Assembly: GCA_902778165.1 (NCBI GenBank)
Contig: CACYWQ010000002.1
Span: 90,427-154,426, forward strand
Length of the DNA stretch: 64,000 nucleotides
Origin: an uncultured Lachnospiraceae bacterium
GTDB lineage: Bacteria; Bacillota; Clostridia; Lachnospirales; Lachnospiraceae
Reading direction: 5' to 3'
Made by a program: the position numbers and the translations under genes
Part shown: positions 60,137-62,694 of the stretch, piece by piece
Position numbering within the stretch: the stretch's first letter is position 1
Layout of the letters: the number at the start of each line of letters is the position of its first letter
The notes under the pieces: generated by a model
Seen by the model: only the letters and a program-made list of their open reading frames with translations
The model's database searches: none
What the model was told of the DNA's origin: nothing

Positions 60137-62176
60137 ATGAGACCAGAATGGAAAGATTTTGTAGGTGGCAAGTGGGAGAATGAGATCAACGTACGTGATT
60201 TCATTCAGAAGAACTACACTCCCTATGACGGAGATGAGAGTTTCTTGGCTGGCCCCACTCAGAACACTAAGGATCTGTGGGCAATGGTTATGGATCTGAC
60301 CAAGAAGGAGAGAGAGGCAGGCGGTGTACTTGATATGGATACCAAGGTTATCTCTACTATCACTTCTCATGGTCCCGGATATCTTGATAAGTCTAAGGAG
60401 ACTATCGTAGGATTCCAGACAGATAAGCCCTTTAAGCGTTCTATGCAGCCTTACGGCGGTATCAGAATGGCAGAGAAGGCATGTTCAGACAACGGTTATA
60501 CAGTTGATCCCGAGATAAGTGAATTCTTCTCAACACATCGTAAGACTCATAACGCAGGTTGTTTCGATGCTTACAACCCTGAGATGAGAGCTTGTCGTTC
60601 ATCACACGTAATCACAGGTCTTCCTGATGCATACGGTCGTGGACGTATCATCGGTGACTACAGAAGAATCGCTTTATACGGTATCGACAGACTTATAGAG
60701 GATAAGGAAGCTCAGAAGGAGTCTACAGGACGCGTAATGACAGACGATGTTATCCGTCTTCGTGAAGAGCTTTCAGAGCAGATGGTTGCTCTTAAGATGA
60801 TGAAGGAGATGGCAGCTTCTTACGGTTGCGATATCTCTAAGCCCGCTTCTAACGTACAGGAAGCTATTCAGGCTACATACTTCGGTTACCTCTCAGCAGT
60901 TAAGGAGCAGAACGGTGCAGCAATGTCACTCGGACGTACTTCTACATTCATCGACTGCTACGCAGAGAGAGACCTTAAGAACGGAACATTCACAGAGGAG
61001 CAGATCCAGGAGTTCATCGATCACTTCATCATGAAGCTTCGTTGCGTGAAGTTCGCTCGTACACCTGAGTACAACCAGATATTCGCCGGCGATCCGGTAT
61101 GGGTAACTGAGTCAATCGGTGGTGTAGGCGTTGATGGCAGACCTATGGTAACAAAGAGCTCATTCCGTTACCTCCACACACTTGAGAACCTTGGTGCAGC
61201 TCCCGAGCCCAACCTTACAGTTCTCTGGTCAACAAGACTTCCTATTCCTTTCAAGAAGTATTGTGCTAAGATCTCTATCACGACATCTTCTATCCAGTAC
61301 GAGAACGATGACCTGATGAGAGTAACACACGGTGATGACTACGGTATCGCTTGCTGCGTATCTTCAATGGTTATCGGTAAGCAGATGCAGTTCTTCGGAG
61401 CAAGAGCTAACCTCGCTAAGTGTATGTTATATGCTCTTAACGGTGGTGTTGATGAAGTTACCAAGAAGCAGGTTGGTCCTAAGTACCGTCCTGTAACAGG
61501 TGACATCCTTGACTACGATGATGTAATGGATAAGTTCACAGACATGATGGAGTGGCTTGCAGATGTATATGTTAACACTCTTAACATCATCCACTACATG
61601 CATGACAAGTACTGCTACGAGAGAGCTCAGATGGCTCTTCATGACAGAGACGTACTTCGTTACTTCGCAACAGGTATTGCCGGACTTTCAGTTGTTACTG
61701 ACTCACTCTGCGCAATCAAGTACGCTCAGGTTAAGGCTATCAGAGATGAGGATGGCATCATAGTTGACTTCGAGACAACAGGTGACTTCCCTAAGTACGG
61801 TAATGATGATGACAGAGCTGATACAATCGCTCATGACCTCGTTGAGACATTCATGAAGATGATCAGACGTCACCATACATACAGAGACAGCTTCCCTACA
61901 ATGTCAGTTCTTACTATTACTTCTAACGTAACATACGGTAAGGCAACAGGTAACACACCTGACGGACGTAAGAAGGGACAGCCTTTCGCTCCCGGTGCTA
62001 ACCCGATGCACGGACGTGATACTCACGGTGCTGTAGCTTCACTTTCATCAGTATCTAAGCTTCCGTTCGAGTATGCACAGGATGGTATCTCTAATACCTT
62101 CTCTATCATCCCCGGAGCACTTGGTAAGGATGACAAGGTATTCGCAGGTGATATCGAAGTAGACCTTAATAAGTAA
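60137..62176 (+). CDS. Pyruvate formate-lyase core without the glycyl-radical domain
   Basis: 679 residues against about 750-760 for full PflB. Converts pyruvate and CoA to formate and acetyl-CoA. The catalytic half is complete: [24 protein letters not shown] start, [14 protein letters not shown] [18 protein letters not shown], and the active thiol pair Cys406-Cys407 ([11 protein letters not shown]). It continues through [20 protein letters not shown] and the [18 protein letters not shown] segment, then stops at EVDLNK with TAA. In PflB about 65 more residues, with the radical glycine (RVSGYAV), follow; here they are encoded by the gene at 62452. Strong AGGAGG and optimised codons mark high expression. 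Not a frameshift: the next frame opens fresh with its own start. Confidence 0.93.
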
Positions 62177-62217
62177 TTAACACATTCCTAAGATGAAGAA
62201 AGGAGGATCGCGCAGCT

Positions 62218-62421
62218 ATGAATGAGAACGAGATGATTGACGACCTTATCAATCAACTTGATTCAGGTATGACCAAGGGAGTGGGACATGTGAATGTCTT
62301 CACTGACGAAAGTTCCGATGATGTCAAAGAGGTTGAGACTATGGGATGTACAGATTGTTCACGTACTCCGTTAGCCTGCAGCGTTCCGACACTTCATCAG
62401 GGACTCGATGATTACCAATAA
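62218..62421 (+). CDS. Small Cys-containing protein resembling the N-terminus of the glycyl-radical subunit
   Basis: 67 residues with AAAGGAGG before the ATG. No family recognised. Residues 10-27 (LINQLDSGMTKGVGHVNV) align without gaps to residues 11-28 of the radical subunit ([18 protein letters not shown]), 9 of 18 identical. The rest differs: acidic stretch 30-40, then MGCTDCSRTPLACSV with Cys44, Cys47 and Cys54, and no RVSGY loop, so it cannot hold the radical. Sits 41 bases after the core and 30 before the radical subunit, inside the operon. May be a paralogue acting as an assembly, regulatory or protective subunit; this is inference. Confidence 0.85.
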   Translation: MNENEMIDDLINQLDSGMTKGVGHVNVFTDESSDDVKEVETMGCTDCSRTPLACSVPTLHQGLDDYQ

Positions 62422-62451
62422 CTACTATTATTCTATAAGGAGGACAAAACT

Positions 62452-62694
62452 ATGGCAGCTTCAGCAGCACAGGTTGACAACCTCGTATCTCTCTTAGACG
62501 GATACGCAACAAAGGGTGGTCACCATTTAAATGTAAATGTACTTAACAGAGAGACTCTCATCGATGCTCAGCAGCATCCCGAGAACTATCCTCAGCTTAC
62601 TATCCGTGTATCAGGTTACGCAGTTAACTTCGTTAAGCTCACACCTGAACAGCAGGCGGATGTAATCTCTCGTACATTCCATGAGTCTATGTAA
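62452..62694 (+). CDS. Free-standing glycyl-radical subunit of pyruvate formate-lyase
   Basis: 80 residues, ATAAGGAGG site. It equals the missing PflB C-terminus: [20 protein letters not shown], then [20 protein letters not shown] with radical Gly55, then [19 protein letters not shown]. Similar free proteins (YfiD/GrcA in E. coli) replace oxygen-cut PFL domains. Here no full-length PflB is present in the cluster, so this is likely the normal radical carrier. A terminator follows. Confidence 0.93.

Follow-up and report, generated by a model that had tools for sequence, protein, structure and literature searches.

A pyruvate formate-lyase encoded in separate parts, with a conserved cysteine-tailed third element, in an uncultured Lachnospiraceae bacterium

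The pyruvate formate-lyase (PFL) of an uncultured Lachnospiraceae bacterium is encoded in separate parts within the window analysed here, a stretch of 64,000 nucleotides (GenBank assembly GCA_902778165.1, contig CACYWQ010000002.1, positions 90,427 to 154,426 of the forward strand; positions below are those of the window). A core of 679 residues and a glycyl-radical subunit of 80 residues, of the GrcA3 type, flank a short reading frame, here called the third element, and an activase gene lies downstream (Table 1). With a probability of about 0.75, we read this PFL as an enzyme of exchangeable parts, namely core, docking glycyl subunit, activase and third element. A first-pass annotation, made from the sequence alone, had described a two-part enzyme and taken that state as the normal form; the split is indeed normal, but the cistron between the two parts, which that annotation missed, encodes a conserved component.

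The core matches TIGR01255 over positions 2-665 of 744 with 1102.7 bits, above the PFL equivalog threshold of 994.2, and aligns with residues 10-681 of E. coli PFL (1h16). The adjacent active-site cysteines Cys406-Cys407, whose retention had been claimed earlier, are present in the motif IACCVS, and alignments with E. coli-type PFL place Cys406 at position 419 (Met counted). The radical glycine is not in this chain, which stops at model position 665 and ends in a C-terminal extension of a kind found in most of the split cores read; the glycyl open reading frame (ORF) matches model positions 665-744, and the two together make one whole PFL. As first annotated, RVSGYA with Gly55 lies in a gene of its own, preceded by TAAGGAGG and two cistrons on from the core, with the 67-residue ORF intervening. 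The glycyl protein scores 159.8 bits against NF038360 (GrcA3), barely over the cut-off of 158, and stays under the cut-offs of GrcA (102.6 versus 170) and GrcA2 (109.4 versus 145); the ratio of nonsynonymous to synonymous substitution rates (dN/dS) of its gene against relatives is 0.03-0.11. A dedicated radical S-adenosylmethionine (SAM) activase matching TIGR02493 adjoins. From homology, the predicted activity of the core system is the conversion of pyruvate and coenzyme A (CoA) to acetyl-CoA and formate.

The host genome comprises 2.35 Mb in 48 contigs and is 95% complete. Searched as a whole with PF02901 for a full-length pflB elsewhere, a check proposed with the first-pass annotation, it returned one match, the core, and hence at this completeness neither a second PFL core nor a full-length copy. 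PF01228 gave three matches, which are the C-terminal stretch of the core, the glycyl ORF and one gene on contig C22 that we take to be a class III ribonucleotide reductase. The window's glycyl protein resembles YfiD/GrcA (TIGR04365; 6owr) and GrcA3 in being a small protein with RVSGYA that is like the PFL C-terminus, but it has 80 residues instead of 127, it lacks the disordered N-terminus of 60 residues, and its partner is a core without a radical domain of its own. A spare part presupposes a full-length PFL in the same cell, whereas the sole PFL core found here is split. Because the partner core has no radical domain, the glycyl protein is better regarded as a subunit than as a repair part.

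The split form is widespread in the family. Among 150 Lachnospiraceae genomes, one per genus and each at least 90% complete, 130 gave matches and 116 exceeded the PFL cut-off; the 14 below it (fragments or other glycyl radical enzymes) were left out of the classes. By hand count, 51 of the 116 genera have only the split form, 62 only the full-length form and 3 both (G513, G545, G555), in agreement with the automated tally (54 split plus 65 full-length minus 3 with both). All 54 split loci were read (49 fetched loci together with the window, L023, L024, L036 and L038), and the glycyl part was always in a separate reading frame; none of 48 full-length loci, drawn from two surveys combined, had a stand-alone glycyl ORF within the fetched flanks. 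A sequencing error joining the frames, named with the first-pass annotation as a possible refutation, is excluded in practice, since 54 of the 150 sampled genera have this split. Given 51 of 116 PFL-bearing genera with the split form only, and no full-length copy in the host genome, the split is a normal form of PFL in Lachnospiraceae. A class survey of 293 genomes found stand-alone GrcA3 frames in at least 16, of which 11 lie outside the family, and all 11 loci are split. The three-gene layout is also present in Acetatifactor muris DSM 23669 (L119). A different arrangement was seen at L202, where an activase-like gene lies between the core and the glycyl subunit of a split PFL and no third element is found. 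Lachnospiraceae also hold a second full-length PFL subfamily with three active-site cysteines, ICCCVSATQTGKE (L012, L014, L016, L018-L020, L022, L032, L033, L149, L152, L153), and L032 and L033 belong to the window's own genus, in which most other PFL-matching genomes have the split form.

The third element had no match in Pfam, the PDB or PHROG, and in NCBIfam only a weak one to GrcA3 (residues 4-31, E 0.11). In profile-profile comparison with hhalign, its residues 4-32, hereafter the arm, resemble residues 5-33 of GrcA3 (probability 88.7, E 2.6e-6), and its C-terminal tail, with the pattern C..C.....AC.VPTL..G.D, resembles tails that, in other genera, extend the C-terminus of the core (probability 94.3, E 1e-7). 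At those fused-tail loci neither an arm nor a third gene was seen between core and glycyl gene. In 6 of the 398 phylum genomes searched, the arm stretch of the third-element profile also matches arms within PFL frames of full-length size, with E values from 1.7e-4 to 9.6e-4. Of 11 pairs compared for the third gene, 4 were saturated, and the 7 that have a finite dS give a dN/dS of 0.02-0.17. Since it is conserved and shows these low ratios, the third element is a genuine protein under selection; it is a conserved component and not a spacer, and no Pfam or NCBIfam match names it. A profile scan of genome contigs gave at least 397 relatives, and nearly all of the 80 kept are titled Lachnospiraceae or genera belonging to it. 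Among 100 non-redundant middle proteins, a set selected by a cysteine motif, 13 have two cysteines, 76 have three and 11 have four; two cysteines are invariant across the aligned fused tails and nearly so across the aligned third proteins. No PFL-type chain matching the cysteine part came back from the PDB when the tail of L023 and the profiles of the third element and of the fused tails served as queries, and a trypsin inhibitor match (E 0.47) was taken as chance. The host genome encodes another protein, of 68 residues (L140 1477-1683; G000:C10:18161-18274), with a similar arm and a different cysteine-bearing tail, HHGRCDVGSPWARGC, downstream of an apparent radical-SAM gene; it matches the third-element profile at E 7e-4 and is a different small protein.

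Read by eye, the third module is a separate gene in 33 of the 54 split loci and a cysteine-rich tail fused to the core in 19. Outside the family, 2 of the 11 split loci have the third gene and 6 a cysteine-bearing core tail. A fixed motif, sought in short ORFs and core C-termini, was found at 37/54 split versus 0/48 full-length loci, and two or more cysteines after the core end at 19/54 versus 1/48 (L155). As the cysteine tail is thus tied to split loci, and as the module switches between cis and trans, being either a gene of its own with an arm or a tail on the core, the third element probably acts at the core, near the groove of the glycyl subunit. By homology with PFL, the core would supply the thiyl cysteines, and the GrcA3-type subunit would carry the glycyl radical and complete the barrel, its helix-plus-strand arm docking at the usual site of the radical domain. 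By analogy with E. coli YfiD, the neighbouring activase would place the radical on the docked subunit. The third element may carry its tail, which has two to three cysteines, into this groove as well; in a core lacking the glycyl subunit it would occupy the groove, hold its thiols near the exposed active site and yield to a fresh subunit. Such a placeholder or gate is the role that we put forward, as a suggestion with the odds somewhat against it.

Several observations weigh against this reading. No tail at all is found at 2 of the 54 split loci of the family and at 3 of the 11 outside it. Two of the 33 separate-gene loci (L024 and L187) keep the arm and end at the first CxxC, and 8 of the 19 fused tails are off the consensus to which the other 11 come near. 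Nor was a cysteine tail seen in any of 18 viral glycyl-subunit records, which may be fragments; with the tail-less split loci, this indicates that the tail is not strictly required. In the AlphaFold model of the core with the third element the core is good (mean pLDDT 73.9), but at a pLDDT of about 24 the geometry of the cysteine tail is not readable. The alignment behind this model, to which viral-contig PFLs including an E. coli-like one had been added for depth, set the arm against PFL arms and so biased its docking. A model of core, third element and GrcA3 tethered by read-through, from a 44-row alignment of mostly close relatives, was not usable (mean pLDDT 40.8).

Other explanations deserve consideration. 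The third element could be a loading element that brings GrcA3 or the activase onto a core without the beta-10 strand, a part played for YfiD by residues 696-733 in the oxygen-cut enzyme of E. coli. According to PMC8683613, truncating the E. coli protein at residue 695 abolishes detectable YfiD binding and lowers activation 32-fold relative to the longer cPFL; the natural core stops at about the same place, and the third element holds a copy of the glycyl arm. What is conserved between cis and trans forms, however, is the cysteine tail and not the arm copy, and tail-less split PFLs exist, so that we regard loading as a tentative alternative only. Small cysteine-bearing subunits encoded with the enzyme are also known from 4-hydroxyphenylacetate decarboxylase (HpdC) and benzylsuccinate synthase (BssB/BssC), whose alpha-beta-gamma complex is present in a database listing, and the iron-sulfur (Fe-S) type among them has four or more conserved cysteine ligands. 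A small subunit that binds a metal or an Fe-S cluster and adjusts how the radical site opens would suit the predominance of three cysteines in the motif-selected set; yet the third element lacks four conserved ligands, with only two cysteines invariant or nearly so, no Pfam, NCBIfam or PDB match assigned it to a family (though a family can be absent from such libraries), and its arm is copied from the glycyl subunit, which makes this role improbable.

A decayed core, with the small gene serving merely as a spare part for some full-length PFL encoded elsewhere, would agree with the GrcA/YfiD proteins known as spare parts for PFL (PMC8683613) and with a genome that is only 95% complete. Against it stand the single PFL core, its dN/dS of 0.016-0.10 over 11 pairs with relatives, and the 51 sampled genera with nothing but the split form, and we consider it highly unlikely. 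Equally unlikely is that the third element arose by duplication of the glycyl gene and survives without a function: the arm does copy that of GrcA3, but the low dN/dS of the third gene and a tail that recurs across families, in cis and in trans, speak for function.

In a quick tree of 98 cores, 62 split cores fall inside one set of 67 rows (SH-aLRT 98) in which five full-length proteins are nested among them. Setting the split cores apart from these five was not rejected (p-AU 0.066), and therefore the tree does not demonstrate re-fusion. Among the five, L155 joins its core to the glycyl domain through a cysteine-rich stretch, CGCEEVTC, consistent with a possible re-fusion product. The fused-tail state changes at least eight times on this tree, two of the changes being forced by well-supported branches. 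Two PDB chains labelled 'Formate acetyltransferase' (38la_A and 38lb_A) have split cores as their nearest rows, at 73-76% identity over about 665 residues. The GrcA3 query did not return either of them, so no glycyl domain was seen in them, and PDB searches found no small partner chain; the analysis covered all but about 35 residues of 38lb. Their placement within the split set is not firm, given that 38lb sits on a long branch and that its top BLAST hits include one full-length row. Both resemble split cores, and such enzymes are probably under study elsewhere.

Viruses also carry the glycyl part. GrcA3 has 84 relatives on virus contigs, of which 80 were kept and the top 18 records followed: 15 hold the glycyl part only, 3 have a split core adjoining, and 17 match the arm stretch of the third-element profile. 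On these virus-classed contigs (L225-L242), several longer than 100 kb, the stand-alone subunit is 68-78% identical to the query. The viral core L231 pairs with the tail-less bacterial L363. Three TGA codons lie within the frame of the split core of L325 (G600), all of them opposite conserved Trp residues in the core of the window, and TGA there looks as if it is read as Trp; stop counts are the same for L326 (G610). Among 50,697 GenBank phage records, 1,539 match the GrcA3 protein; these may be stand-alone genes or full-length PFLs, and at least one of those listed is full-length. The spare part of phage T4 was already known (PMC8683613).

As for the layout of the locus, the first three genes may form one transcription unit with the activase gene outside it, since a promoter-like site precedes the core and a terminator-like hairpin follows the glycyl gene; the support is weak, the region having 4 promoter-like sites versus a mean of 10.0 in shuffled sequences (the one upstream of the core being the best of the 4) and 2 hairpins versus 2.1. 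Directly 3' of the activase gene, 63674-63877 encodes a small protein with two 4Fe-4S ferredoxin-type cysteine motifs, and ahead of the core a small divergent ORF at 59676-60002 has a CVGCP motif and presumably belongs to DUF1858; both are possible redox partners.

Table 1. Features of the split PFL locus, in window positions
Feature	Positions	Strand	Evidence and remarks
Promoter-like site TTGACG-17-TATAAT	60012..60040	+	Consensus scan; 11/12 match, 5' of core
PFL core, 679 aa	60137..62176	+	TIGR01255 1102.7 bits, PF02901 729.7 bits; no glycyl-radical domain
Codons of Cys406-Cys407	61352..61357	+	Sequence and alignments; equivalents of E. coli C418/C419
Third element, 67 aa	62218..62421	+	Arm at about residues 4-32, cysteine tail at about residues 45-64
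Glycyl-radical subunit, GrcA3 type, 80 aa	62452..62694	+	NF038360, TIGR01255; Gly55 codon 62614-62616
Terminator-like hairpin	62717..62744	+	Between glycyl gene and activase gene
PFL-activating enzyme (radical SAM), TTG start	62811..63566	+	TIGR02493 289.2 bits, cut-off 231.75

These findings are new only to a limited degree, in that GrcA3 already has an NCBIfam model and two chains in the PDB resemble such cores. A search of titles and abstract openings found no report of a split PFL or of GrcA3, most subscription journals and bioRxiv preprints being outside its coverage. Compared with PflB (TIGR01255; E. coli 1h16/2pfl), the enzyme described here has its glycyl-radical domain in a separate gene, a different C-terminal extension on the core and a third element with a cysteine tail. 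PFL belongs to textbook central metabolism and is a model for radicals held in proteins, and a state like that of the oxygen-cut, spare-part-repaired E. coli enzyme seems to have been made permanent in 54 of the 116 PFL-bearing genera sampled in one family. It is tempting, though speculative, to picture a three-part PFL across many Lachnospiraceae and related Clostridia in which the radical sits on a dissociable protein cofactor, a dedicated thiol gate, either fused to the core or brought to the empty groove by a copy of the cofactor's arm, guards emptied cores pending a new subunit, and viruses exploit this by carrying only the replaceable radical subunit. In a 2022 reconstruction of gut fermentation, PFL is handled as a single PflB with an activase (PMC9403272), and annotation that expects a single PflB chain would misread organisms with the split form. 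The split enzyme makes radical loading, subunit exchange and oxygen repair separable by experiment, and its third element is a new small protein with a directly testable role.
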